In this document: in pieces, positions 1 to 13,082 of the stretch
Numbering within the stretch: the first letter of the stretch is position 1
Layout of the letters: every line of letters begins with the position of its first letter
NCBI RefSeq assembly: GCF_023822005.2
Contig: NZ_CP098806.1
Coordinates: 3,844,001 to 3,908,000, forward strand
Direction: 5' to 3'
DNA from: Dyadobacter fanqingshengii
GTDB taxonomy: Bacteria > Bacteroidota > Bacteroidia > Cytophagales > Spirosomataceae
Length of the DNA: 64,000 nucleotides
The notes under the pieces: generated by a model
Seen by the model: the letters and a program-made list of their open reading frames with translations, nothing else
Databases searched by the model: none
Told to the model about the DNA's origin: nothing
Made by a program: the position numbers and the translations under genes

Positions 1-59
1 TGTGCATGGGCACGAAATCCAAATACAATAATTCCTAAAAGTAGAATAAATGGTCTCAT
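1..59 (-). CDS. Partial CDS, N-terminus of an exported protein
   Basis: An ATG at 57-59 on the minus strand opens a frame that runs off the left edge without a stop. The 19 visible residues (MRPFILLLGIIVFGFRAHA) form a typical Sec signal peptide: one basic residue, a hydrophobic core and a small-residue end. It starts 15 bases after the stop of the upstream protease gene on the same strand, so the two are probably co-transcribed. The mature protein lies outside the window and its function cannot be inferred. Confidence 0.55.
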   Translation of the reverse strand, partial: MRPFILLLGIIVFGFRAHA

Positions 60-74
60 AACATTTGCGTGAGT

Positions 75-2423
75 TTAATTTAACAATATTCTTACTTTCT
101 CAACTTGCTTATCTGCACCGCGTCCGGAAATTATATGCAGGAAATATATGCCCCGAGGCAAATCACCTACGGTAATTGAGATTCTGCTTTTTGAATTTTG
201 CTCCGCAAGCATCTTCTTCACAGAAACTACTCTTTCGGGCTTTTCTGAATTTTCGTTAAATAGCTGGATTTGCTCAGGAACAGATCGTCCATCTTCTGTA
301 AACCATTCCAGCGTCAAAATATCTGTTGCTGGATTGGGGTATACTTTAAACATTCCTGATAGGGAAAATACAAAATCCTCAGCATAATTGCCACAGCTAT
401 TTGTTGCTGTCAGTTTAACCTTACGATATCCATTTGTGGAATTACCTAGAACATACATTTGAGTATTCGAACTGTTTGGGCTGTAAAGATCAATAGCCAT
501 ATCCCCAGAACCAGCATAATTATTATAGTTAAATGTTGTGCTTGGACTCGTCGAAGTTGCTGCAAGATTATATAGTTCTCCTGCATTTACCGAAGTAGTG
601 CCAGTAACGACACCATTCACAGTTTTATTAATGTTAGGATTGCCTACCCAGATTGAACGCTTGATTGTTATTGGCGCGCAGGCATTTGGTATCGTCAATG
701 TTGTAAAGATTGTTCCCGCTCCGTTATAACCTGCCTGACGAGTAGCAAGGGTCCCAGCCATTTTTAGTCCGGCAGATGCAGACCAGACGGCAGACGATCC
801 TGATGGAAATGCGGTTAGTGAGTAACCACCATTAACGCAAATGAGCGCCGGCCCTGTTATCGGAGCTCCTGCTGCTTTTTCAACTGCACGTAGGGCGTTG
901 ACTCTTCCATATCCAAGATCATTGTTGTGAGATAGATCTGAAAATGTAGAACCATTGCCCACAACGTAATTATAGCCGCCTACCTTATCGCACGTTTCTG
1001 CGATGATTTTTCGTACTTGTAACTGAGTCAAGTTCGGATTTACCGAAAGCACGAGAGCTGCGATTCCTGCAACCGCCGGAGCCGCCCAAGAAGTTGCGTT
1101 TTCAGCCGGCTGATTATTATAGGCACTCAAATCTTTTGTAGTTATATAAGCGCCCGGAGCAGCCACATCAATTCGATGCGTGGGACCGTTTGAACCTTCC
1201 CAGCGCGTATCGTTGGATTTGGAGGCGCCTACAACAAACACATCTTTGACATTTCCAGGCAAAGGTGCGAGATAGTTCTGGCCTTTGTTGCCAGAGCTTG
1301 TTATGAGAACAGCTCCTTTACCTCCGCGTCCATTTACAGCGGCATTAATTAGTGCAGCTTCAATCACTGGATTTTGATTAACAGGAGATATACTTGCTAT
1401 AATGCCCCATGACATATTTAGAATGTCTGCATTCTTCTGATTAATAGCATGATTAATGGCAGATGCTACATAGGAGTCCAATGTCTCCGTTCTCAAGTTC
1501 CCGTCCGGCTTCGTACCGAACGCTCTTATTGGGATAATCTTGCTATTGTAAGCTACTCCGGCAATCCCTATTCCATTATTGCCTTTGGCAGCTGCAAAGC
1601 CAGCGCACTTAGTCCCGTGTTGCTCCTCTCCTGCAACTGTTCCTCCATTCGTCCCATATTGCGTAGCATCAAAACCAGGAAGCAAATTGGGTTGTAAATC
1701 GGGGTGATTAAGTTGTACACCGTCGTCAATGATTGCGATTTTAATGTTTGAGCAACCCGTCGTAATGTCCCAGGCCTCAGGTAATTTCATTTTAGCAAGG
1801 CCCCAATTACTGGCAAAAAGCGGATCGTTAGGATTTCCTGCCAGCTCTATAAATCGGAGATAATTGGGTTGTGTAAATTCAAACAGGCCCGTCGCGTCGA
1901 GCTTCTCGCAGGCTTCAAAGGGATTGTTACTAACAAGCCCGCCGCTCAAATAGTAGTTGATTTCTGAGTCCTTGTCTTCCTCGTCTACCATCAAATTATA
2001 TTTTCGGAACGCACTCAGAACATCTTCTGTAGGAACTTCCCTTTTAGGCCTTGCAATAACTAGATCTGTCAGTCCAGCTGTTTCCTCGCCATTTTCAGAA
2101 ACCAGCATCGGCTGAGCTGATTTGATATTTTCATCTGTTCGGAGTTTGGCAACGGCGTTCTGTAATTCGATGATTGATGTTGATGAATCGAAAACAACAT
2201 AAGCCATATCCGGAATGCTATGGATAATTTCGGTTCGCTTAATTCGATTTGAAAATAGTTCGGGATACAAGTCGTTGCTTTTTGTTCGGTCCTTAAACTT
2301 GATCAACAATTTCGTCTTACTAAACCAAATAGGGTAGTTCACACCATTTTTTAAATAATTCGCATCCTGAGCAGTTGCCACTTGCGTAGCGAGGAAAAGC
2401 ATTAAGAATAGTTTTTTCATCAT
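75..2423 (-). CDS. Secreted subtilisin-like (S8) serine peptidase with T9SS sorting domain
   Basis: This is an exported endopeptidase. I chose the ATG at 2421-2423 because it begins directly with a signal peptide (MMKKLFLMLFLATQVATAQ); a longer frame reaches 2489 but adds a non-signal extension. From that start the subtilase triad is visible as Asp233 (IIDDG), His269 (EEQHGTK) and Ser445 (ATSWAAP), with the oxyanion Asn379 (SSGN). The serine box has Trp where GTSMAAP is usual. A region before the catalytic domain resembles a prodomain. The last ~90 residues begin at FKVYPNPATD and end in basic KVRILLN, which is the type A T9SS C-terminal sorting domain. The protein should therefore cross the outer membrane through the type IX system, of which SprA is encoded in this window. 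The substrate is unknown. Confidence 0.93.
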   Translation of the reverse strand: MMKKLFLMLFLATQVATAQDANYLKNGVNYPIWFSKTKLLIKFKDRTKSNDLYPELFSNRIKRTEIIHSIPDMAYVVFDSSTSIIELQNAVAKLRTDENIKSAQPMLVSENGEETAGLTDLVIARPKREVPTEDVLSAFRKYNLMVDEEDKDSEINYYLSGGLVSNNPFEACEKLDATGLFEFTQPNYLRFIELAGNPNDPLFASNWGLAKMKLPEAWDITTGCSNIKIAIIDDGVQLNHPDLQPNLLPGFDATQYGTNGGTVAGEEQHGTKCAGFAAAKGNNGIGIAGVAYNSKIIPIRAFGTKPDGNLRTETLDSYVASAINHAINQKNADILNMSWGIIASISPVNQNPVIEAALINAAVNGRGGKGAVLITSSGNKGQNYLAPLPGNVKDVFVVGASKSNDTRWEGSNGPTHRIDVAAPGAYITTKDLSAYNNQPAENATSWAAPAVAGIAALVLSVNPNLTQLQVRKIIAETCDKVGGYNYVVGNGSTFSDLSHNNDLGYGRVNALRAVEKAAGAPITGPALICVNGGYSLTAFPSGSSAVWSASAGLKMAGTLATRQAGYNGAGTIFTTLTIPNACAPITIKRSIWVGNPNINKTVNGVVTGTTSVNAGELYNLAATSTSPSTTFNYNNYAGSGDMAIDLYSPNSSNTQMYVLGNSTNGYRKVKLTATNSCGNYAEDFVFSLSGMFKVYPNPATDILTLEWFTEDGRSVPEQIQLFNENSEKPERVVSVKKMLAEQNSKSRISITVGDLPRGIYFLHIISGRGADKQVEKVRILLN

Positions 2424-2542
2424 AGCACCGACTAATTTTAGAAGAGATTCCAGAAATAATGGTGCTATGTACTTGTATTTTTCCAACAAATAATTTCAAC
2501 TTTTCCTCCGGCGCACTTGAATGAACGAACGGTTTGTAGTGG

Positions 2543-2803
2543 TTACAACTCCCTAAATTCCCCTTTCCTAATCCCCTCAACCTTCTCAAAAAATTCAAGC
2601 AATTCCTTAAACGAAAAGTAAGTATTGCTCAAATTCTCCGAGCGGCCCATTTCGTTTTGGGCTAGCATGAAGCCGCTGAACATGGTCCAAAGTTCGTCGG
2701 TCCAGCTTTCGGCGGTGCTGCTGCTGAGCAATGCGGCTACTTCGCGTCCGTATGCGATCCATTGCGAGTCGGGCGACTCGCTAGCGTGTGTTTCTGTGTT
2801 CAT
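2543..2803 (-). CDS. Small hypothetical protein
   Basis: About 86 residues from the ATG at 2801-2803 (MNTETHASESPDSQW). The frame is open further upstream to 2899, but that part is basic, low in hydrophobics and unlikely to be translated. The protein is acidic with alternating hydrophobics and contains no signal peptide, membrane segment or motif that I recognise. It is divergent from the XRE regulator gene at 2994, and the 190-base gap between them must hold both promoters. It may be an unrelated conserved hypothetical rather than part of the toxin-antitoxin block. No function is assigned. Confidence 0.6.
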   Translation of the reverse strand: MNTETHASESPDSQWIAYGREVAALLSSSTAESWTDELWTMFSGFMLAQNEMGRSENLSNTYFSFKELLEFFEKVEGIRKGEFREL

Positions 2804-2993
2804 TTTGCCAATTTTAAATGTCTGATCGGAACCCTGATGACGATTTCCCTTTTTGTTTGGCGCCAAAGCACGGATTCCTGGAAATCGTACGTAACACATC
2901 GCACTGGTATCTTACACCGAATTGCTAGTAAATTACTCGGAAACTTACCGATAGATTTATCTAAATTGCCATTTTAACAAACCACCTTCCCGC

Positions 2994-3434
2994 ATGGCAC
3001 ATACTACATCCAACCCCAAGATTCACGAAGGCCGCAACCTAAAACGCTTCCGCGAAATGCTTGGAATGAAACAAGACGTCCTTGCCTTTGAGCTCGGAGA
3101 AGAGTGGAACCAGCAAAAGGTATCGTTACTGGAACAAAGAGAAAAGATTGATTCTGATATTTTAGAGCAGGTTTCGGCAATACTGAAAATCCCAAGTGAT
3201 GCAATTAGGAATTTTGATGAAGATCAGGCGATTAATATTATTTCAAATACATTTCACGATCAAGCATATTTGGGAAATCCACATTCGACTTTCAATGTCA
3301 ATCCGATTACAGAAATCAGAAGATTGCATGAGGAGAAGATGGAGCTTTATGAGCGGATGTTGAAGGAGAAGGATGATATGATGGGGAGATTGGAGCGGTT
3401 GATTGGGAATAGATCAAAGTCAGAATCGCTATGA
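2994..3434 (+). CDS. XRE-family helix-turn-helix regulator
   Basis: A 146-residue DNA-binding protein. Residues ~14-65 have the Cro/CI-type fold pattern (NLKRFREMLGMKQDVLAFEL, then a recognition-helix region WNQQKVSLLEQ). A linker and a C-terminal amphipathic helix (~105-140, many Glu/Lys/Arg with Met) could mediate oligomerisation. Its stop overlaps the start of the downstream nucleotidyltransferase gene by 4 bases, so the genes are almost certainly one operon. By analogy with other toxin-antitoxin modules it probably represses its own operon, but this is inference. It does not look like a fused antitoxin. Confidence 0.85.
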   Translation: MAHTTSNPKIHEGRNLKRFREMLGMKQDVLAFELGEEWNQQKVSLLEQREKIDSDILEQVSAILKIPSDAIRNFDEDQAINIISNTFHDQAYLGNPHSTFNVNPITEIRRLHEEKMELYERMLKEKDDMMGRLERLIGNRSKSESL

Positions 3435-3916
3435 CAGAAGAAGAAAAATTTCGCGATTTAGAGCAGAGGATACGTCTTGGTATGAAAAAGACTTTTGAAA
3501 GTGTTCTTGAATTTAAAAGACAGAAGAATTCTCCTTTGGTCGTAATGAGAGGCGACAAAATTGTGAAGATTATGCCGGAGGACTTTCATAAATTGAAAAG
3601 AAAAGACAATGAAATGAACATGCTGGAAAGACATAAAGAAGTTATCGTAAAACTTTGTAAAGCACACAGGGTGAAAAGCTTATATGCATTCGGTTCTGTT
3701 CTTACTGATCACTTTGACAGAGAGAGCGACATTGATCTGATCGTAGACTTTTCGCCAATGGAAGTCGAAGATTACGCGGACAATTACTTCGATTTTAAAT
3801 TTTCTTTACAAGACATCTTTAATCGTCAAGTCGATCTGCTTGAAGCAAAAGCGATCAAAAATCCCTATTTTCTGCAAAATGTAAATCAACAGAAGCAGCT
3901 TGTGTATGGACATTGA
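3431..3916 (+). CDS. MNT-type nucleotidyltransferase (MntA-like antitoxin) with extra N-terminal segment
   Basis: A minimal nucleotidyltransferase of 161 residues. The active-site pattern GSx10DxD is complete (Gly88, Ser89, Asp100, Asp102, within FGSVLTDHFDRESDIDL). In characterised MNT/HEPN pairs the MNT enzyme transfers AMP to a tyrosine of the HEPN toxin and neutralises it. The catalytic domain would be complete from Met62 (ATG at 3614). The ~60 residues before it are basic, resemble a stand-alone small hypothetical, and are not part of the usual MNT fold. The gene overlaps the regulator (ATGA, 3431) and the HEPN gene (3906), so the three are translationally coupled. Either the N-terminal segment is fused, or 3614 is a second internal start. 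Confidence 0.88.
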   Translation: MTEEEKFRDLEQRIRLGMKKTFESVLEFKRQKNSPLVVMRGDKIVKIMPEDFHKLKRKDNEMNMLERHKEVIVKLCKAHRVKSLYAFGSVLTDHFDRESDIDLIVDFSPMEVEDYADNYFDFKFSLQDIFNRQVDLLEAKAIKNPYFLQNVNQQKQLVYGH

Positions 3917-4244
3917 GATCAAAGCGTGGCTTTATAATATCCTCAATGCAATCGCAGAAATCGAAAGCTTCTTCGCTGATCGACCCATGCTATTTGCAAA
4001 CTATCAAGCTGACTTACGCACAAAACGCGCCGTTGAAAGGAACATTGAAATTATCGGCGAGGCGATGAACCGCATCATTAAAAAGGACAACAACATCCAA
4101 ATCACCAACTCGCGCAAACTCGTCGATACTCGTAATCGGATCATTCATGGTTATGATTCGGTTTCTGATGATGTTATTTGGGGTATTGTTGTTAGGCATT
4201 TGCCGGTTTTGAAAACGGATGTTGAAAATTTGCTGAAAATATGA
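3906..4244 (+). CDS. HEPN-domain (DUF86, HepT-like) RNase toxin
   Basis: A 112-residue all-helical protein from the ATG at 3906; an earlier start at 3900 adds only two residues. It carries the HEPN RNase signature R-x4-H-x-Y as Arg76, His81 and Tyr83 (TRNRIIHGYD). The central EIIGEAMNRI helix is typical of DUF86. HepT proteins cut RNA and are silenced by the partner MNT enzyme, which AMPylates the motif tyrosine. The gene overlaps the MNT gene by 11 bases, which fits a toxin-antitoxin pair with the unusual order antitoxin first under a regulator. Function in cells (plasmid maintenance, phage defence) cannot be told from sequence. Confidence 0.9.
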   Translation: MDIEIKAWLYNILNAIAEIESFFADRPMLFANYQADLRTKRAVERNIEIIGEAMNRIIKKDNNIQITNSRKLVDTRNRIIHGYDSVSDDVIWGIVVRHLPVLKTDVENLLKI

Positions 4245-4380
4245 CAATTGTTTAGGACTTATAATGCTGGCTAAGCAGTAATCTTTAAAGAATGTAAGAA
4301 TAGCATAATAAGTAGATATTTATTTATATTTACAATATTTAAAAATATAAATGAGCTGATAGCCCTCACCTATTTGTTTC

Positions 4381-6444
4381 ATGAAGGAAAACAAAGCTAT
4401 AACTTATAGCCTACTCGCACATATAAGAAATACCGGAACTTTAATGAAAGGGCCAATCGACGCTTTCGTACCCCTTATTAAACGTGCGCTACACCAATTA
4501 AATGAACAAGGTATATCTAAAGGGCAATCCATCTTGGAAATTCAGCGATACGCATCAGAAATATACTCTATTGATTTTCCGCTGCCCGTATTAAAGTCGA
4601 TCCTAAAAAAAATAGAATCGGAGGTCAATGAGGGAGGAGTGATAAATTTTCAGTTATTTAATGACAATTCATTCCTTTTAAAAGAGTTTTATTTTGTGGA
4701 TTACGAAGAAAGTTTGCAAGAAAGCAAAAGAGATGTAACCACAATAGAGAAACTATTCTTAGACTTTCTAAAAATCAATAATATTGAGCCCGAAGCTAAT
4801 CAGTCTGTTTTGAGGTTCATTGAAAAAAATAAGATGTCAATATCAAGATATATTTCTAACATACATGTAAGCAATGGAACTGACTATACAATAGAGGCTA
4901 AGTTTGTCGATTTTTTTAAGAAAATACCTCATGTTTACGAAATAATTAAACGCTTATATCTTGGCTCGATAATAACTGGATTTTTAGAGTTTAAGACAGA
5001 TAGTTATGCCAATAAAGTTGAATTGTTATTAGACACGAACTTTGTAGTCAGTTTATTAGACCTAAATACTCCTGAATCGACTCATACGTGCAACAAGTTG
5101 CTAGAAGTTTGCAGAAACATTGGATATAATTTCTCAATTCTATCAGACACTATTGACGAAATAAAGTTCCTTCTCAAAAAAAAGGCTGAGAATTTCTCAA
5201 ATACATTTCTAGGCAAAAGAATTAATCCAGAAGACATTTACAATGCTTGCGAAAGAAGAAGGCTTAACGGCAGTGATCTTGAGCGTATAGTTGACAATAT
5301 TGAAGATTTGGTACATGGGGAAGGAATTAATATCATACCGCACACAGAGAAATGGAAAAATATTGCAAAATTCAGTAAAGAATTTAATTATCTAAAAGAT
5401 GTAAGAAATTCAAAAGTCTCAGCATTACATGACGCAACAGCAATTTTTTATGTGAGAGAAAAGCGTGGTAAGCCTATACGCGACTTTGAAAAAGTCAATT
5501 GCTGGTTTGTCAATAACTCTTTTTCGCAGACCTCACTTAGCAATGAAGGCTACATTGAATTTCAAAACGAATCTATTCGAGCCGATGAACTATTGAATAT
5601 TCTATGGCTATCTAATCCGGGAATTAACAGAAACTCTGATAATGATGACTTTATAGACATTGGACTTACATCTATTGTAGCATTTACACTAAGTAGATCT
5701 TTGCCAAAGGCAAGCATAATAAGAGAATTAGATGATAATATCCAAAAATACCGCGATGAATCAATATCAGATAAAGACATTATATTAATATCTACACGTA
5801 TTTCGAATCGCCAGTTAAAAGACATTGAAGGGTTAAACAAGTTGGCCGAAACGAGTAAGGAAGAGTTTGTAATAAAATTAAAAGACGAAGCAAACAAACA
5901 GCTTATTGAAGAAAACAATAGGATTGAAAAATTAGATGGTTTATTACAAAAATTTCAATTACAGGTTACGAAGGTTGGCAAGGAGCGTTTAAGACTTAAA
6001 CAAAAAAATGAACATATCGACAAACAAGAGCTCAGTTATCAAGCTAAGACAAGTGAACTCGAATTAAAACTTGCTAATGAACGGAAAGAGAAGATAATCG
6101 CAAAAAATAAGCTTATAGCTATTGCTCGTAATGCATTTATTTCAAAAAAAGTAAAAAAATGGAGACTACAAATTTTAATTCCATTTCTTGCGGCAGCTGG
6201 CATCGCGCTTATTGGGATCCTAATATTATTGAGTTCCAATCAGTGGAATTTTTCTGAATTATTTAACAACATAGAGAAAATCAAGAAGGATTCACTAGGA
6301 TCTTTACTTATGGCAATGATTGGTCCAGTCATCTTTGCTTTCTTTATGCCAGTCTTTATTTTAAGATTTTTTAACGTTTCTAATATCGAAGCGTTTAAGA
6401 AAACAATTACAATTCCTTCAGAACTTATGGACGAAGAACTCTGA
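4381..6444 (+). CDS. PIN-domain protein with coiled coil and two C-terminal membrane segments
   Basis: A 687-residue protein with no close family that I recognise. Residues ~1-200 are uncharacterised and helical. Residues ~213-375 look like a PIN nuclease fold: LLLDTNFVV with Asp218, an acidic TIDEIK with Glu260, and SALHDATAIF with Asp351, followed by a CWFVNN strand. Residues ~480-590 are rich in Lys/Glu with heptad spacing and are probably coiled coil. Two hydrophobic segments follow, at ~596-618 and ~641-663. The gene is visibly more AT-rich than its neighbours, with many AAA/ATT/TTA codons, suggesting horizontal transfer. It lies 136 bases after the HEPN gene on the same strand. A membrane-tethered RNase used in defence is a plausible inference, not shown. 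Confidence 0.8.
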   Translation: MKENKAITYSLLAHIRNTGTLMKGPIDAFVPLIKRALHQLNEQGISKGQSILEIQRYASEIYSIDFPLPVLKSILKKIESEVNEGGVINFQLFNDNSFLLKEFYFVDYEESLQESKRDVTTIEKLFLDFLKINNIEPEANQSVLRFIEKNKMSISRYISNIHVSNGTDYTIEAKFVDFFKKIPHVYEIIKRLYLGSIITGFLEFKTDSYANKVELLLDTNFVVSLLDLNTPESTHTCNKLLEVCRNIGYNFSILSDTIDEIKFLLKKKAENFSNTFLGKRINPEDIYNACERRRLNGSDLERIVDNIEDLVHGEGINIIPHTEKWKNIAKFSKEFNYLKDVRNSKVSALHDATAIFYVREKRGKPIRDFEKVNCWFVNNSFSQTSLSNEGYIEFQNESIRADELLNILWLSNPGINRNSDNDDFIDIGLTSIVAFTLSRSLPKASIIRELDDNIQKYRDESISDKDIILISTRISNRQLKDIEGLNKLAETSKEEFVIKLKDEANKQLIEENNRIEKLDGLLQKFQLQVTKVGKERLRLKQKNEHIDKQELSYQAKTSELELKLANERKEKIIAKNKLIAIARNAFISKKVKKWRLQILIPFLAAAGIALIGILILLSSNQWNFSELFNNIEKIKKDSLGSLLMAMIGPVIFAFFMPVFILRFFNVSNIEAFKKTITIPSELMDEEL

Positions 6445-6496
6445 CAATTTTTTTTTGAGCTAGATAATACCCTTAGATCGTATTAAGCTCTAACCC

Positions 6497-8212
6497 TCAC
6501 CACCCCAACTCAACCCCCTCCCCCTTCAAAAACCCCTGAAACCCAATCAACAACTCCTCCCGCTCCCGCACAACCCGCGGCGCCACACCTTTCTCCCCAG
6601 CGAACTTCACCAATAATCCCACAGCCTCCCCAATGCTCCATTCAACCGGATGGAGGCGGTAACAGCCATTCGTAATGTGCGTTGTGCCAATGTTCTTATT
6701 TGCTGGAAGCAGATTTTCCATCCGCACGGGCAGCAATGCGCCTAGCGGAATCTGGAATGGCAATGATGCGAAATCAATGTAGTTATCTCCGGCGCTGCTG
6801 GGGTGCAGGTCGATGTGGTAGTAGCCTACTCCTACGCTGTCGTGGAAGTTGGAGGCTTTGTCTTTGGAGCCTGGGGCGCCGTTGGCGACTGCTATGGCGC
6901 GGTTTTCGGCTCCTACGTGTTCTTCTTTAATAGTGAAAAGGGCTTTGATGCGGCGGGATTCACGGACGTAGGGGTATTTGGCGAGGCCATCTTCGGTTCC
7001 CATAATGTCTTTGCGGAGGCGGATTTCGGGCCAGCCTTTGCCGCCGTCGGGGCGTGGGGCTTCGGTTTGTAGCCAGTATAGCAAGGATAGGCTGAGCTGC
7101 TTGGCGCGGTTGACGTGTTTTTCGAAATCTTTTTGGCTGGCTCCGATAAGATTGCCCAGAAAATAATCGTTTTGGGGCCAATTGACGATGGTAATGTCGC
7201 CTGCGTAGGTTCCGGGTTTGAAATTGTCTTTGCTGATGATCCGGCGGTAATTCCAGAGGTTCAGCATATCGCCCGTTTTGATGCCTGCCGGGTGAAATCC
7301 AAGTTGTTTCGGCTCCAATGTTTTGGGATTGGAATAGGACAGGTCCAGCAACTTTCCCGACCAGGGTTTGGTCATTTTTGGAATAAAATCCTTCCAGAAT
7401 GCGTATTCAACTGGCTTTTCGATCACATGATTTTCTCCCGGCCGGTAATCGATCGCGAAACAAACGGTGAATGCCTGGTTGTTTTCAGGATTGCCCTTTT
7501 CGGGTGCGTGGAGCTCGTTGGTTTCACTTTTGGATTCTGTGCCGGTTACGAATTCTGTTCCGGTTATTGGCAGCAGGTCGCCTAATTCTGTGGCGTCTAC
7601 AAAATAGGGTGCGGAGAGCTTGGAGCGGGTTTTTGTTTTAACATTCACCACTTCCAATGACCGGACTTTATTCCCATCGACGTCCGCCGAAATGGCTTTA
7701 TGTTCTATCAACAGTGTCAGCTTGCCCGAACTGATGTAGGGCATGAACATATCGTTGAGAACGGCAACCGCTACACGCGGCTCATGGCAGAGGCGGGAAA
7801 CAGCGCCGTCACCGGGATTTAAATGCTTACGATTCCTGGCTTCGTCGGTAAGCGGATAATGGTTGATATAATATTGGCGGATCACTGTCCTAAAATCCCG
7901 ATAAAGCTGCGTAGCGCCGTGTGTTTCAATCCATTGATGCTCGTCCGGCGGGACGCCTTGCTGGGAAAGCTGGCCGCCGAGCCAGTCGGTTTCTTCGGTC
8001 AGGATTACGGATAGGCCATTGCGTAATGCGGCCAATGCAGCTGCACAGCCGCCTAAACCGCCACCGGCAACGACCATATCGGCCTCAAAAAAAAGATTCT
8101 TTGCAGGGTCTTTCGACTGCTGCAAAGAATCCGGATTTTGTATTTTATCTTCTTTGTTCGAAAGCAAGCTGCCCCCCAGTGCAATGCTTCCCAGGAAATT
8201 TCTGCGCTTCAT
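6497..8212 (-). CDS. FAD-dependent oxidoreductase with twin-arginine signal
   Basis: A 571-residue member of the FAD_oxidored family (PF12831 type). It starts with a Tat signal (MKRRNFLGSIALGG), so it is probably folded with cofactor in the cytoplasm and exported. The Rossmann FAD-binding site follows at ~45-75 (VVAGGGLGGCAAALAA), and a second family-typical stretch is TEETDWLGGQLSQQG. C-terminal residues near GTTHITNGCYRLHP are also usual for this family. The substrate is unknown. The start lies 5 bases after the anti-sigma stop, so it is probably transcribed with the sigma/anti-sigma pair and could be a target of that sigma factor. TatA is encoded elsewhere in this window. Confidence 0.88.
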   Translation of the reverse strand: MKRRNFLGSIALGGSLLSNKEDKIQNPDSLQQSKDPAKNLFFEADMVVAGGGLGGCAAALAALRNGLSVILTEETDWLGGQLSQQGVPPDEHQWIETHGATQLYRDFRTVIRQYYINHYPLTDEARNRKHLNPGDGAVSRLCHEPRVAVAVLNDMFMPYISSGKLTLLIEHKAISADVDGNKVRSLEVVNVKTKTRSKLSAPYFVDATELGDLLPITGTEFVTGTESKSETNELHAPEKGNPENNQAFTVCFAIDYRPGENHVIEKPVEYAFWKDFIPKMTKPWSGKLLDLSYSNPKTLEPKQLGFHPAGIKTGDMLNLWNYRRIISKDNFKPGTYAGDITIVNWPQNDYFLGNLIGASQKDFEKHVNRAKQLSLSLLYWLQTEAPRPDGGKGWPEIRLRKDIMGTEDGLAKYPYVRESRRIKALFTIKEEHVGAENRAIAVANGAPGSKDKASNFHDSVGVGYYHIDLHPSSAGDNYIDFASLPFQIPLGALLPVRMENLLPANKNIGTTHITNGCYRLHPVEWSIGEAVGLLVKFAGEKGVAPRVVREREELLIGFQGFLKGEGVELGW

Positions 8213-8217
8213 TCTTT

Positions 8218-9123
8218 TTAAACTACTTTCCCCATCACATACATTTCTTCCATAGTTGGCGAAGGAACGCCTCCTTCTTTTTCAAGTGTGATAGCGAAAG
8301 CAACTGCGCCTGGTTTTGTGTTTTTCATGGTAAGGACCTTTCCGGAAAATTCCTGATCGATCATCCCGTTATCAACCGGCTTGCCGTCCACAATGCTCCA
8401 AAGCTGATACTGCTTACCAGCAGGCGCTTTCGGTAAATTTTGCACATCGAGCAGAACCTTGTTTGTAGCAATATGCCAGAATGCCGACACGGAACTTCCG
8501 GGAGATTTTGGTAAACCGGCCAGATGAACAGATTTATAACCTGGATCGCGGAAAAGATTTGCAAGCGATTGGTTATACTCAAAGCCTTGTCGCAAAGTCG
8601 CCATTTCAGTCTTCATACCACTCATTTCCGATGCCAGCTGCTCATTACTACCTTTGTATTCAGTAAGTTGGCTAGCCGACCAAGCGGCAAACAGCGCTAG
8701 CAACACGGCAGCTGCAACTGCCAGTTTTGCCCAGAATGGTGTTACCACCTTGGTTTCAACACTATTAAAGACATTATCGATCACTCTCGGTTCATCCTGT
8801 GCTACCGGACGGATTGTACTGATCACGGGAACCGGCTCGCTGTCAGCGTCTTCGGCCCTTGTTTCGTCAATGTTCGTATTTTCTATTTCCTGCGCGGAAT
8901 CAAAGTTCATTTTTGCAAAAAGCGACTCTTTCAATGATGCAGGAGGTGGTGTCTGATGTTTCAGTGCATATTCTTCCAATGCGCTCTCAGTCCGTAGCAG
9001 CTCTTCTTTTATCTCGGGATAAATATGAGACATGCACTCCACTTCCTGTTTTTCCTGAGGAGAAACAGTGCCCAATACATATTCCTCTAATATACCGGAC
9101 TCTATGTAGGCTTGGATATTCAT
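8218..9123 (-). CDS. RskA-like anti-sigma factor
   Basis: A 301-residue membrane-bound regulator. The cytoplasmic N-terminal part (residues 1-60, with ILEEYVLGTVSPQEKQEVE) is the usual sigma-binding helix pattern of Bacteroidota anti-sigma factors. An acidic linker leads to one membrane segment at ~131-152 (WAKLAVAAAVLLALFAAWSA). The extracytoplasmic part carries an anti-sigma-K (RskA) C-terminal domain with its typical core (PAGKQYQLWSIVDGKPVDNG). Its start overlaps the sigma-factor stop by 4 bases, so the two are translationally coupled. It presumably holds that sigma factor at the inner membrane until released. The signal is unknown. Confidence 0.92.
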   Translation of the reverse strand: MNIQAYIESGILEEYVLGTVSPQEKQEVECMSHIYPEIKEELLRTESALEEYALKHQTPPPASLKESLFAKMNFDSAQEIENTNIDETRAEDADSEPVPVISTIRPVAQDEPRVIDNVFNSVETKVVTPFWAKLAVAAAVLLALFAAWSASQLTEYKGSNEQLASEMSGMKTEMATLRQGFEYNQSLANLFRDPGYKSVHLAGLPKSPGSSVSAFWHIATNKVLLDVQNLPKAPAGKQYQLWSIVDGKPVDNGMIDQEFSGKVLTMKNTKPGAVAFAITLEKEGGVPSPTMEEMYVMGKVV

Positions 9124-9866
9124 ACTGCAAAGTATTGTTTTAACTCTTGTAATGCTGTCCGGATCCTTGATTTGACAGTTCCCAGCGGGATACTCAGCTC
9201 CTCGGATATTTCTTCATGCGTGTATCCCTGAAAATAGGCCATGTCAATGAGGATCTTCCTTTCGGGCCTCAGCATGTTCACAATTGCTTTCATTTCCGAA
9301 CTGGATGTCAGTGAATCTTCATACACGTCCCTTTCGTTCAGAACTGCCTTGTTTTCGATATCATCCATCGCTGGTTTTCTTCCTTCGACTCGCGCGGCGT
9401 CTATCGCACCATTCCGTGCAATATTCATGATCCAAGTAAATAATCTTCCTTTTTCCGGATTGTAAGAAGCGATATTCTTCCAGATCTTCAAGAAAGACTC
9501 TTGTAATACATCCGCGGCCCTCTCCTCGTCCCTCAATGTTTTTGAAATGATATTAAACAAAGCGCCTGAGTAATGGTCGTACAGAAATTCAAAAGCTGTT
9601 CGCTCGTTTCTTTTTAGAGCTAACACCAATTCCTCTTCCGAGTATTTTAACTTACTAGTCGCCAAGAGTTGCTTAACATTTAATTGTATGTTATGAATTG
9701 GCAATCTAACGAAATTTCTGAAGAACCGGTCACCGTTATTGTAAATTATTGCGACCGGGTTTAAGCCATCAAAAACGCTGATTACCTGCGATAAAGGAGG
9801 CCTTCCGGCATGGGTACATATTGCATTCATCATAGTGTGTTTTTTATTCATATACGAACAACACAC
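9120..9866 (-). CDS. ECF RNA polymerase sigma factor (SigK-like)
   Basis: The sigma-70 region 2 is clear (TAFEFLYDHYSGALFNII, then AADVLQESFLKIWKNI and GRLFTWIMNIARNGAID), as is region 4 (MAYFQGYTHEEISEELSIP then GTVKSRIRTALQEL). It pairs with the RskA-like anti-sigma gene, overlapping it by 4 bases. The start is uncertain. The first ATG in frame gives 248 residues, of which the first ~70 are unlike a sigma factor. No later ATG precedes region 2 in frame, and a TTG in the LLATSKLKYSEEEL stretch would give a more usual length. The regulon is unknown, but the adjacent FAD oxidoreductase gene is an obvious candidate. Confidence 0.9.
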   Translation of the reverse strand: MCCSYMNKKHTMMNAICTHAGRPPLSQVISVFDGLNPVAIIYNNGDRFFRNFVRLPIHNIQLNVKQLLATSKLKYSEEELVLALKRNERTAFEFLYDHYSGALFNIISKTLRDEERAADVLQESFLKIWKNIASYNPEKGRLFTWIMNIARNGAIDAARVEGRKPAMDDIENKAVLNERDVYEDSLTSSSEMKAIVNMLRPERKILIDMAYFQGYTHEEISEELSIPLGTVKSRIRTALQELKQYFAV

Positions 9867-9917
9867 AAGAAAAGATCAATGTAATGCCAACTCTTGCGGA
9901 AAGGCCAGAGATATGGC

Positions 9918-10646
9918 CTATTTTCTTATTTTTTCAATCCTAATGTACGCCAGGAACAAGAATAATGCCATGAGGCTCAGAAGATAAATGATGTTTCGGG
10001 AATCGACGAGCCCTTTTCCTAACGCCAGGTATTGCTGATCCAGTGCTGCCCAATTAAGCAATTCGGCAGCCAATCCTACTCCTGCAAGTTGTGCCAATGC
10101 GCCAAAACCCACATACCAAACGAAGGCAATAAAGACGCTCGCGATGAACGCTACGATCTGATTGTCGGTCAGTGAAGAGGTCCAGATCCCCATGGAAACC
10201 AGCACGCCGCAAAATAGCAACAGGCCAATGTAAGAGCCGAAAACTGCGGCAGAATCAACATTACCTTCGGGGTTCCCTAATTTGTAAACGCTATAATAAT
10301 AAATGAGTGTGGGCAAAAGCGTGATCGCTACCAAGACCCAGTTTGCCAAAAATTTGCCAAGTACAAGCTCGCTGTTACGCAACGGCTTGGTCAGCAGCAG
10401 TTCCAATGTACCGTTCCGGGCTTCCTCGGCAATGGAGCGCATCGTAATGGCCGGAATCAAAAAAAGCAGCACATACGGAGCCAGCTGGAAGAACGAGCCC
10501 AGATCGGCATAGCCATAATCGAGAATATTGGAATCAGGAAAAACCCAGACGATCAGGCCGATCGCAGTTAAAAAGGCGGCCATCACAATGTAGGCGATCA
10601 GGGAATTGAAAAAGCTCCCTATTTCCTTTTGAAAAATTGCAAACAC
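9918..10646 (-). CDS. gldF: Gliding motility ABC transporter permease GldF
   Basis: A 242-residue ABC-2 type permease with about six hydrophobic segments. Diagnostic stretches are the N-terminal KEIGSFFNSLIAYIV and the cytoplasmic-loop motif RSIAEEARNGTLELLLTKP, both typical of GldF. GldF works with GldA (ATPase) and GldG in an inner-membrane transporter linked to gliding in flavobacteria. GldG usually follows directly, but here the next gene on the strand is the ECF sigma factor, so gldG is not adjacent. Function in this organism is inferred from the family. The last codons lie in a short inverted repeat (9902-9919) that lacks a convincing T-run. Confidence 0.93.
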   Translation of the reverse strand: MFAIFQKEIGSFFNSLIAYIVMAAFLTAIGLIVWVFPDSNILDYGYADLGSFFQLAPYVLLFLIPAITMRSIAEEARNGTLELLLTKPLRNSELVLGKFLANWVLVAITLLPTLIYYYSVYKLGNPEGNVDSAAVFGSYIGLLLFCGVLVSMGIWTSSLTDNQIVAFIASVFIAFVWYVGFGALAQLAGVGLAAELLNWAALDQQYLALGKGLVDSRNIIYLLSLMALFLFLAYIRIEKIRK

Positions 10647-10683
10647 ATTTGAAAAATTTAAGCGGCAGGAATGCTTTCAGATT

Positions 10684-11199
10684 TTATTCAAAAACCGGCT
10701 TTTCGCGGCGGATAATGGCTGCTACGATCAGTGAAATTACCAGGCCGGTCAGCACATAGCCGAATACACCAATTGCAAACACGATCCCGGGCGACATGAA
10801 TTTCTGGGACAACTCCATAGCCTGGTCAATTTGCGAATCGTCCATGCCTTTCCGCTCCATATCCTCACGCACTTTGTCCATTCCTTGCGTCAGTAACGTG
10901 TTATCAATGAACTGCATATAAAACATGGTGAAGGCAGAACTCAGCAAACCCATCACCGCAGAAACCAATGTGCCCAGTCCCAATCCTTCGCCATAGGACA
11001 TGAAACCATTATTTTTTTCACGAAAATTCTTCATAGCCAAAACAATGGCTACGATCATGAAAGCAAACGCCAAAGAGGATAAGACCTTGTTCTGTGACAA
11101 TCCGGCAATGTTGATAATTGTCGTATAGATCATGATTACCACGGACGCCAGCACGCCGTATTTCAGCGCTACACGAGCAGTTGAGGCTTGTTCTTCCAT
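10684..11199 (-). CDS. DUF4199 family membrane protein
   Basis: A 171-residue integral membrane protein with four hydrophobic segments (~13-33, 36-56, 72-95 and 140-165). The central motif NGFMSYGEGLGLGTLVSAVMG is characteristic of DUF4199 proteins of Bacteroidota. The loop before the last segment is charged and Met-rich. Function is unknown. It stands between gldF and a second DUF4199 gene on the same strand, so the two DUF4199 proteins may work as a pair. No sequence evidence links them to gliding. Confidence 0.85.
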   Translation of the reverse strand: MEEQASTARVALKYGVLASVVIMIYTTIINIAGLSQNKVLSSLAFAFMIVAIVLAMKNFREKNNGFMSYGEGLGLGTLVSAVMGLLSSAFTMFYMQFIDNTLLTQGMDKVREDMERKGMDDSQIDQAMELSQKFMSPGIVFAIGVFGYVLTGLVISLIVAAIIRREKPVFE

Positions 11200-11241
11200 A
11201 TTAAAAAGTGTTTAGGTAAGGCAATTTCCTGGTAATCAAAT

Positions 11242-11802
11242 TTAAGATTTATTATGAAACACACCGTAATCCTGCTTTCTGAAAATAAGCGAAATGACCA
11301 GGATCGGGATGATGGCCATCACCGTTTTCTTGCTCACTTCGTCCATAATGATCTCCGAACGCTTCATGCTTCCTACCCCGTTATACATTTTGCTAAATTC
11401 TGCTTCACCAATGTTCTTCACCAGTTCTGCCTTTCCTTCGAGCATTAATGCTTTCATTTCGGCCAGGTAATCGGTAAAAACCGAGGGGTCGCCGTAAGTC
11501 ACAAAAAAGTACATGAGCCACCCGGCGATCAGCGCACCAATTGTATTCACCACATAACCGATCGTTAATGCTTCCCACAAATGCAGAAATCCATTGCCGA
11601 CATATTTGCGGTAATACCAGCATGCGCCGGCAATCAGGATAATGTGTATGCCAAAATCAAGGATCTTGTTATTGCCAAACGGCACAATGTCCATGGCATA
11701 AAGTCCCAGGAAAAATGCGAAAACAAGCACTCCGGTGATCAATCCAAATATCAGGGAGACTTTTAAAAGGGGTTTGTTAAAATATGCGATAATTGATTTC
11801 AT
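11242..11802 (-). CDS. DUF4199 family membrane protein
   Basis: A second, diverged DUF4199-type protein of ~186 residues with four hydrophobic segments and the family-like FLHLWEALTIGYVVNTIGAL stretch. I chose the ATG at 11800-11802 rather than the one at 11811 because it forms an ATGA overlap with the stop codon of the dihydroorotase-like gene, a common sign of translational coupling. It is therefore probably expressed with that gene. Function is unknown. The C-terminal tail (FRKQDYGVFHNKS) is short and basic. Confidence 0.82.
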   Translation of the reverse strand: MKSIIAYFNKPLLKVSLIFGLITGVLVFAFFLGLYAMDIVPFGNNKILDFGIHIILIAGACWYYRKYVGNGFLHLWEALTIGYVVNTIGALIAGWLMYFFVTYGDPSVFTDYLAEMKALMLEGKAELVKNIGEAEFSKMYNGVGSMKRSEIIMDEVSKKTVMAIIPILVISLIFRKQDYGVFHNKS

Positions 11803-13082
11803 AAATACCATTCCTGTTTTCCGTTATTGACAACGCCTCTCACTTTTCCACGCAGCTCTTGTCCCAGAAATGGTGTATTTTTTGATTTCGAAAAGCTTTT
11901 AGTAAATGTCCAGTTTGTGTCCTTTTCGAAGAAAGTCAGGTTCGCCAGCGCGCCTTCTTCCAATAAAGGATCCTGTAATCTCAAAATACGTCGCGGTCCC
12001 GAGGTGAACTTCTCGATAATGTCTTCCAAACTTAATCCACTGTACATGAATGCAAGGGAAAAAGCCGTTTCCAGGCCGGTTATACCAAAATCAGCATGAT
12101 CGAATTCCAGGTTTTTACTTTCCTCGTCATGTGGATTATGGTCCGAAACAATGGCGTCGATCGTTCCGTCCGCGAGCGCTTCCCGAATGGCCTTCACGTC
12201 TTCGGCAGAGCGGAATGGCGGGTTCACTTTCAGGTTTGTATCAAAATCAATCAGATCGCTGTCTGTAAATGCGACCTGGTGCGCCGCAATGTCACAGGAA
12301 ACGGGCAAACCATTCTTTTTTGCTTCCCTAATGAGTTCTACGGCTCTTTTTGTAGAGATTAATGAAACGTGCAATGCAGGAGAGTCAGACTTGTACATGC
12401 TTTTTTCAAGCGCATACTCGAGTAATTTGAGATCCCTGTTGAGCATCATTTCCTCGGCCAGCGAAGGAATTCCTTTCATGCCGATCAAAGTGCTTGTCAA
12501 GCCCTCATGCATTTGTCCGTAGAGTGTCAGTTGCCTGTCCTCCGGGCGGTTCATCAGCAGCGCATTGAGCGGTTGTAAATATAATATCGTTTTTAAAAAC
12601 AAATCGGCATTCTGCACGGGATGCTCGCCGTCCGTAAATGCTATGGCGCCTGCTTCATGCAGATCGATCATTTCAGTGAAGTCAACGCCTTCGGCTTTGC
12701 GCGTTACCGACGCTGCCACGTGCAGTTTCACCAGCCCGCCACTGCCCGACTGGCGAATGTAGTTCAATGTATCCTTGCTATGCACAACCGGCTCGGTGTT
12801 GGGCAGCAATACAATTTCCGTAAAGCCCCCATGCGACGCTGCGGCGCGGACCGAAGTCAAATCCTCTTTATGCTCAAAGCCGGGATCACGGGATGCCACA
12901 CGCATATCCACCCAGCCAGCAGACACGCACAAGCCATCCGCCTCTATTACTTCCGCATCTCCCGCATCGAGTTTATCCCCTATTGATTTAATGTTTTTGC
13001 CTTCAATCAAAATGTCCTTAATCTGGCCGTTAAACGGAGATTTTTTGTCAATGATCTGAGCTGAACGAATTAATAATTTCAT
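11799..13082 (-). CDS. Dihydroorotase-family protein (PyrC-like) lacking the HxH metal motif
   Basis: A 427-residue amidohydrolase of the dihydroorotase family, normally closing carbamoyl-aspartate to dihydroorotate in pyrimidine synthesis. Family landmarks remain: RDPGFEHKEDL after the first strand, CDIAAHQVAFTD, and SDHNPHDEESK near the C-terminus. The first metal-binding motif is not intact. Where active enzymes have DMHVHLREPG, residues 59-68 read DMRVASRDPG, so both histidines are replaced (Arg61, Ala63). This matches the inactive PyrC-like class that supports aspartate transcarbamoylase in some bacteria. It may be a structural partner, with a true dihydroorotase elsewhere. Its stop overlaps the downstream DUF4199 start. 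Confidence 0.88.
   Translation of the reverse strand: MKLLIRSAQIIDKKSPFNGQIKDILIEGKNIKSIGDKLDAGDAEVIEADGLCVSAGWVDMRVASRDPGFEHKEDLTSVRAAASHGGFTEIVLLPNTEPVVHSKDTLNYIRQSGSGGLVKLHVAASVTRKAEGVDFTEMIDLHEAGAIAFTDGEHPVQNADLFLKTILYLQPLNALLMNRPEDRQLTLYGQMHEGLTSTLIGMKGIPSLAEEMMLNRDLKLLEYALEKSMYKSDSPALHVSLISTKRAVELIREAKKNGLPVSCDIAAHQVAFTDSDLIDFDTNLKVNPPFRSAEDVKAIREALADGTIDAIVSDHNPHDEESKNLEFDHADFGITGLETAFSLAFMYSGLSLEDIIEKFTSGPRRILRLQDPLLEEGALANLTFFEKDTNWTFTKSFSKSKNTPFLGQELRGKVRGVVNNGKQEWYL

Follow-up and report, generated by a model that had tools for sequence, protein, structure and literature searches.

The block and its genes

The window examined here is a stretch of 64,000 nucleotides from Dyadobacter fanqingshengii (contig NZ_CP098806.1, positions 3,844,001 to 3,908,000), and our subject is a block of four genes at window positions 2994 to 6444. 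These encode an XRE-family regulator, a pair resembling the MNT antitoxin and HepT (HEPN) ribonuclease toxin, and a 687-residue protein with a PIN domain. The block is almost certainly the inner part of a defence hotspot in the chromosome, with interchangeable cargo, and the PIN protein is probably one interchangeable, single-gene anti-phage effector. The features of the block and its edges are listed below in window coordinates; loci and genomes used for comparison are cited by number (L and G, respectively).

2543..2899, minus strand: small conserved gene sm118, divergent from the XRE gene; left edge of the slot, matched in all 27 other slot loci
2907..2969, plus strand: GTAAnTTAC-like boxes (starting at 2907 and 2928, 21 bp spacing) and the conserved stretch after them; candidate operator or promoter
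2994..3434, plus strand: XRE-family helix-turn-helix protein, the constant header of the slot, present in 28 slots (PADLOC HTH_VI 4e-7, Pfam HTH_3 0.031)
3431..3916, plus strand: MNT adenylyltransferase-like protein, putative HepT antitoxin (PF18765 7.1e-13, PF01909 1.6e-12)
3906..4244, plus strand: predicted HepT-like HEPN ribonuclease with R-x4-H-x-Y (PF01934 4.9e-20)
4381..6444, plus strand: 687-residue protein with winged helix, PIN domain, coiled coil and two transmembrane helices, the swappable cargo of this strain (950 relatives scored; 66-row alignment)
4450..4704, plus strand: winged-helix-like domain of the PIN protein, residues 24-108
5017..5586, plus strand: PIN domain, residues 213-402, with D218, E260 and D351
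5857..6150, plus strand: long helix of the PIN protein, residues 493-590 (helix 493-619 in the model), presumed to be a coiled coil from the structure model rather than from a coiled-coil program
6160..6387, plus strand: two predicted membrane helices of the PIN protein, residues 594-621 and 637-669 (hydropathy maxima 2.82 and 2.44; relatives similar)
6497..8212, minus strand: gene which we take to be FAD-dependent oxidoreductase-like; the slot ends on the right at the 3' end of this gene, with same-genus DNA similarity resuming at 6453-6506 (13 of the 15 loci listed)
8218..9123, minus strand: presumably anti-sigma-like gene, the anchor for locating the site in other genomes; found in 47 of the 48 genomes of the genus, that of the window among them

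The whole window contains no tRNA, and its positions 1-12000 matched no Rfam family. Direct repeats flanking the PIN gene are short or imperfect ones only, none being present at both edges. A sigma-70 scan returned 16 sites against 12.2 expected, under a model that does not cover Bacteroidota promoters.

The slot across the genus

Sorting of the 47 sites yielded 28, the window counted, in which a single contig carries both XRE and oxidoreductase sequence. The G780 site (L063/L074) is spread over two contigs and the G801 site (L072) is interrupted by a contig end; two sites (L085, L095) have the oxidoreductase without the XRE gene, and 15 (L097-L111) are without the small gene, the XRE gene and an oxidoreductase adjoining the anchor, although L107 and L109 carry an oxidoreductase-similar gene about 9 kb from it. 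Among the 28 slots, XRE is truncated in L096 and the oxidoreductase is reduced to fragments in L062 and L071.

Between XRE and the first match to the oxidoreductase lie 2065-4512 bp (median 3100). Mechanical calling of open reading frames (ORFs) of at least 150 residues gave 59 cargo ORFs; these fall into 52 clusters, of which 45 are singletons, and make up 27 distinct sets; an identical set is shared by L076 and L080 only. No cargo sits in other gaps of the same loci (at most 49 bp for nagB-idh, at most 328 bp for oxidoreductase-anchor), and the stretch from idh to the small gene varies too. It is this pairing of flanking genes conserved in 28 of the 47 anchor-bearing genomes with 27 sets of content in 28 slots that marks the site as a hotspot. 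At L095 (10869-12343, turned) we observed neither XRE nor a cargo ORF of at least 75 residues, only repeated short frames and a remnant of the small left gene.

The scan took in thirty proteins, drawn from the edge locus L072 and 20 of the 27 slots other than the window's; L062, L077, L080, L084, L090, L092 and L093 lay outside the scan, and scanned slots were covered for part of their ORFs. PADLOC matches at E<=1e-9 were obtained in 14 of these 20 slots, a count that stands without a random-gene background and therefore leaves defence enrichment unquantified. The matching slots are as follows.

L064: PDC-S71 (1.5e-190)
L070: PDC-M68B
L071: PDC-S60 (NB-ARC with calcineurin domain)
L073: PDC-M30A
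L075: cytosine methylase and TIR, with an HNH protein at 2.2e-6
L078: HEC-01A/B
L079: PD-DExK
L081: AriA-like ATPase and Mrr nuclease
L083: DUF2290 and helicase
L087: SIR2 and HerA
L088: HEC-04
L089: PDC-S06 with nuclease
L091: cytosine methylase
L096: AbiU

The best PADLOC match in L076 reached 8.7e-5, the scanned proteins of L065, L067, L082, L086 and L094 had none, and L072 showed DUF4062 only. No integrase was found among the 30 scanned cargo proteins. Cargo unmatched by PADLOC, and thus offering further candidates, includes L065 6817-8889 (a TPR protein), L067 7701-9080, L082 9632-11389 (turned) and L086 10539-11675. An earlier reading of the window, made from its sequence alone, had placed the block in a defence-related setting, and the slot interiors do mostly resemble anti-phage systems.

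The PIN protein and its relatives

The PIN protein has no significant match in Pfam, NCBIfam or PADLOC, and a sequence search against solved structures returned none. A fold search nevertheless recovered a contiguous PIN fold at residues 213-402, within which D218, E260 and D351 are invariant in 66 aligned sequences; these would form the active-site set, assigned by motif rather than superposition. The sequence-only reading had described the four genes, an intact R-x4-H-x-Y in the HEPN protein, and a PIN protein of 687 residues with this acidic set, a coiled coil, two membrane helices and an AT-rich gene. This description is borne out: the adenylylation motifs of both partners are intact, the model contains the long helix presumed to be the coiled coil, hydropathy has two maxima, and the PIN gene is low in GC. 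The protein is thus probably an RNase by fold, at the membrane by anatomy, defence cargo by context and a single-gene system by isolation.

Full or split copies of the gene occurred in 3/395, 2/395, 2/222 and 3/294 genomes of four samples (the first three including the window's own genome), which are lower bounds because few candidates per genome were scored. A family search of 222 genomes found the full-length gene, within the genus, in the window's genome only, and G796 gave a single match, weak and interrupted. The order-level search gave one weak match in 46 genomes, and 80 genomes of the family of G148 held no additional full-length homologue. Plasmid and phage collections had no match by tblastn, nor did viral contigs yield a relative in a two-pattern scan. 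The gene is broken into two overlapping frames in L027 (7992-9990) and lies in pieces in L007 (10001-12107), and therefore decays in some hosts. Two more proteins of similar PIN, coiled-coil and membrane layout, with no Pfam or PADLOC match, were noted at L030 9498-11609 and L031 7647-9977; the former has 499 scored relatives and carries the source label 'regulator of replication initiation timing' (Runella defluvii).

Ten other PIN loci were read (L002-L007 and L026-L029, 8.6-22 kb each). Hidden Markov models (HMMs) of HepT and MNT, built from 8 and 12 same-genus copies and applied at E<=0.01, matched in none of the ten within the fetched DNA; the positive controls L062 and L067 were detected but also belong to the training set, and very divergent HEPN or MNT proteins could escape such models. 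An XRE gene lies near the PIN gene in one of the ten, L027, and is of the same family as that of the window. In L026 the PIN gene stands inside a type I restriction operon in the order hsdM, PIN, hsdS, hsdR, and in L005 it lies upstream of DruE- and DpdE-like helicase genes.

The MNT-HepT pair

The HepT motif is intact (RNRIIHGY, residues 76-83), the MNT protein has GSX10DXD at residues 88-102, and the PF01934 gene adjoins the PF01909 gene with MNT first, as in the HepT/MntA (type VII) toxin-antitoxin. Scores of 43.2 (MntA) and 33.6 (HepT) bits fall below the NCBIfam equivalog cut-offs of 60 (NF047752, NF047751); we therefore claim a HepT/MntA-like pair and not NCBI's equivalog. The pair is most likely a resident toxin-antitoxin, in which MNT would adenylylate Tyr83 of HepT, the known switch being assigned here by motif.

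Residues 1-57 of the window's MNT protein correspond to a small piece which some relatives encode separately, and residues 61-161 to the MNT domain. The protein looks like a fusion of the two, because L067 encodes a homologue of residues 1-57 as a gene of its own. There (5738-7612), between XRE and MNT, the small gene is accompanied by a P-loop kinase-like gene, presumably zeta-like. MNT relatives were matched in 39 of 48 same-genus genomes and in several led to the same chromosomal site. Partial MNT matches follow XRE in L076, L080 and L092, and others in L089 and L096 were not called as ORFs; these remnants suggest that MNT formerly occupied the site in a larger number of genomes. Where HepT is matched in full, the slot holds cargo other than PIN (L062, L064, L065, L067, L088), and DNA similarity to relatives breaks between HepT and the PIN gene.

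The XRE header

The XRE family is multi-copy, with 10 matches in G797, 13 in G993 and 2 in the window's genome. At least one box, with at most one mismatch, precedes 35 of 38 XRE genes compared (28/28 at this site or its split copy, 7/10 at other sites), and a pair 20-21 bp apart precedes 21 of the 38 (19/28 and 2/10, respectively). The pair occurs nowhere else on the plus strand of the window. A 42-nt upstream consensus, derived from the same sequences, occurs once in the window where none is expected.

Twenty loci with XRE copies at other sites were fetched, and ten proteins from seven of them were scanned, a hand-picked choice that favours the defence view. Their neighbours are given below.

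L167 (second XRE copy of the window's genome, C1:680833-681246): then a cytosine-methylase-like gene, a HATPase protein (HATPase_c_3, 3.7e-17) and an unmatched 393-residue protein
L169: AbiH
L170: DUF1016/YhcG nuclease
L177: IrrE-type peptidase with DUF4411
L179: below-cut-off match only
L180: nothing notable
L181: N6 methylase with GmrSD_N

By eye, no obvious defence gene was seen in L171, L172, L175, L176, L183, L184 and L186, among others. Six XRE proteins (L070, L071, L079, L080, L082, L086) are 90-94% identical to that of the window, other same-genus copies compared being 71-89% identical. In these six, identity to the window's XRE does not track the anchor gene, and XRE alleles seem to move independently.

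Turnover of the slot

DNA similarity to the window ends approximately at the end of XRE or HepT and resumes at the right edge given above. Near relatives may differ wholly in cargo: L087 and L089 have DNA identities of 95.3% (idh), 92.9% (FAD-dependent oxidoreductase, FAD) and 96.8% (XRE), yet carry SIR2-HerA and PDC-S06 with a nuclease, respectively. Unlike cargo likewise separates L081 from L087 (94.4, 90.3 and 96.5%) and L083 from L092 (93.1, 87.7 and 92.7%). Conversely, L082 and L086 share only 76.7% in idh and 73.3% in the anchor, yet 91.8% in FAD and 96.3% in XRE, and L076 and L086 share 77.4% in idh yet 92.0% in FAD. In some genomes, such as these, exchange has affected the edges. Cargo may thus be replaced when the two conserved edges undergo homologous recombination, with insertion elements perhaps contributing on occasion.

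Two side observations concern the right edge. In L065, L078, L079, L086 and the contig-end locus L074, cargo and the complete oxidoreductase gene are separated by fragments of that gene's 3' end, and beside these fragments a similar small-gene pair (77 and 82-97 residues) occurs in L065, L074, L079 and L086.

Interpretation

We consider it likely that the explanation holds as a whole: a hotspot interior with a resident MNT-HepT pair and the PIN gene as exchangeable effector. The PIN RNase, predicted to be anchored at the inner membrane through its C-terminal helices, would be restrained by its winged-helix or coiled-coil region until a phage-induced signal frees it to cut RNA and bring about abortive infection, independently of HepT and MNT. 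We lean, with moderate confidence, towards an action of the protein against phages or other mobile DNA, and offer the membrane-tethered, autoinhibited mechanism tentatively, at somewhat below an even chance.

Several findings weigh against this explanation, in addition to the lacking background of the PADLOC count. Some PADLOC matches are to PDC models, which are candidates rather than proven systems. The full-protein structure model has a predicted template-modelling score (pTM) of 0.42, and autoinhibition of the PIN protein is a guess. Cargo runs entirely with XRE in 16 slots, entirely against it in eight and in mixed directions in four; control of the cargo by XRE is therefore not established. 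An identity more than 8 points above that of idh was seen for FAD in 2 of 253 pairs and for XRE in 19 of 325, so that edge recombination is visible in a minority. We had considered inferring transfer from shared cargo exceeding anchor similarity, and dropped this, shared-cargo DNA being at most slightly above idh and FAD. The cargo common to L076 and L080 is 84.3, 83.6 and 81.8% identical against 80.6% (idh) and 82.8% (FAD), a similarity close to that of the flanks and hence no evidence of recent transfer; L073 and L084 (cargo 72.1 and 78.4% against 78.5 and 75.1%) likewise give no sign of it. Finally, what we take to be transposase-like pieces are present where the contigs of L072 and L074 end and, in L067, to the left of the small gene; insertion elements may therefore take part.

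The sequence-only reading had joined HEPN/MNT and PIN into one layered module, in which an MNT-silenced HepT and a membrane PIN RNase provide two-stage abortive infection. Adjacency on one strand, 136 bases apart, speaks for it; yet the HMMs detected neither HepT nor MNT in the DNA fetched for the ten other PIN loci, same-genus HepT slots hold other cargo, and DNA similarity breaks between the HepT and PIN genes. We rejected the module on this neighbourhood test and regard it as very improbable: the genes look like neighbours by position, not partners. The same reading had proposed judging the PIN gene by its neighbours elsewhere, and here the answer is divided. The restriction operon of L026, the helicases of L005 and the XRE gene of L027 agree with a defence role, whereas seven of the ten loci have no recognised defence neighbour (by ORF lists, most neighbours being unscanned), which counts against the effector we favour. 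This last result, together with a large family of conserved architecture, would fit a membrane housekeeping or stress RNase that is in the slot by chance. We find that unlikely given that the gene is present in about 1% or fewer of sampled genomes, has low GC, is located in a restriction operon and a defence hotspot, and is disrupted in both L027 and L007.

PIN folds are typical of VapC toxins, and the slots also hold HepT and genes presumed to be zeta-like, all of which could make the PIN protein the toxin of a toxin-antitoxin or a stabilising element rather than an anti-phage protein. However, no small antitoxin-like gene adjoins it here and none is common to the other PIN loci (ORF lists, by eye), and 687 residues with membrane helices further reduce the appeal of what we judge a quite improbable account. 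That the slot merely tolerates neutral insertions next to the end of a gene, and is no defence hotspot, is scarcely credible. Five of the 20 scanned slots lack a PADLOC match and the match rate has no random-gene background, but the 14 matching slots, the constant XRE header, and XRE copies elsewhere that precede AbiH, YhcG, GmrSD and methylase genes all argue otherwise.

Under the favoured explanation of a hotspot with exchangeable cargo, slot edges fixed within tens of bases and near-unique contents allow unknown cargo to be ranked as defence candidates, among them the PIN family and the contents of the five scanned slots that matched no model. With a constant XRE header both at this site and at some others, one may ask whether a regulator marks, and controls, the landing sites of small defence systems. 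As a speculation that we think unlikely to hold in full, XRE and its upstream element might form a portable, regulated dock at many Bacteroidota sites, taking up small defence or toxin-antitoxin systems singly by flank recombination, with XRE controlling the tenants upon infection. The relation of such a dock to defence genes would be loosely comparable to that of an integron promoter to its cassettes, though no integrase would be involved.

Comparison with known systems

Defence hotspots are of a known kind; a small form headed by XRE and carrying one cargo was not found described, nor was the unnamed PIN family. Among the matches listed from open-access PubMed Central (PMC), neither titles nor abstracts describe the slot, its header or the PIN family, an absence that is weak evidence. 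VapC toxins, of about 130 residues and with a VapB partner, resemble the PIN protein in fold and, by fold, in the acidic set. The PIN protein, in contrast, has 687 residues and its gene follows HepT, a small adjoining antitoxin gene not having been found.

The Pseudomonas aeruginosa hotspots cDHS1 and cDHS2 share with our slot constant flanking genes, highly variable defence content and no single mobile-element type, and their authors likewise proposed flank recombination (PMC10250203). As given there, cDHS1 spans 1-224 kb (median 26 kb), whereas the present slot spans 2.1-4.5 kb, holds about one system at once and has a constant XRE gene at its edge. Mapping through flanking core genes is common to the Escherichia coli defence-island hotspots, which are as a rule unoccupied in most genomes, filled by mobile elements and in many cases bearing integrases (PMC10121019); here 28 of 28 are occupied. 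The large, mobile-element-borne content of both sets of hotspots was not found in our slot, given its size and the absence of integrase from the 30 scanned proteins.

HepT/MntA (PMC7641770) has the same RX4HXY and GSX10DXD motifs, Pfam families and gene order, and differs in that our MNT protein has 161 residues with an extra N-terminal piece of 57 and that the pair scores below the equivalog cut-offs. DS-3, a single PIN protein without cognate antitoxin for which the authors suggest autoinhibition, is comparable (DefensePredictor, PMC13092281). Its PIN domain is split between the N and C termini, that of the window protein being central and joined by a winged helix and two membrane helices, a contrast drawn by description. 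Since DS-3 protects without an antitoxin, single-gene PIN defence is plausible, membership of the window protein in that system not being implied.

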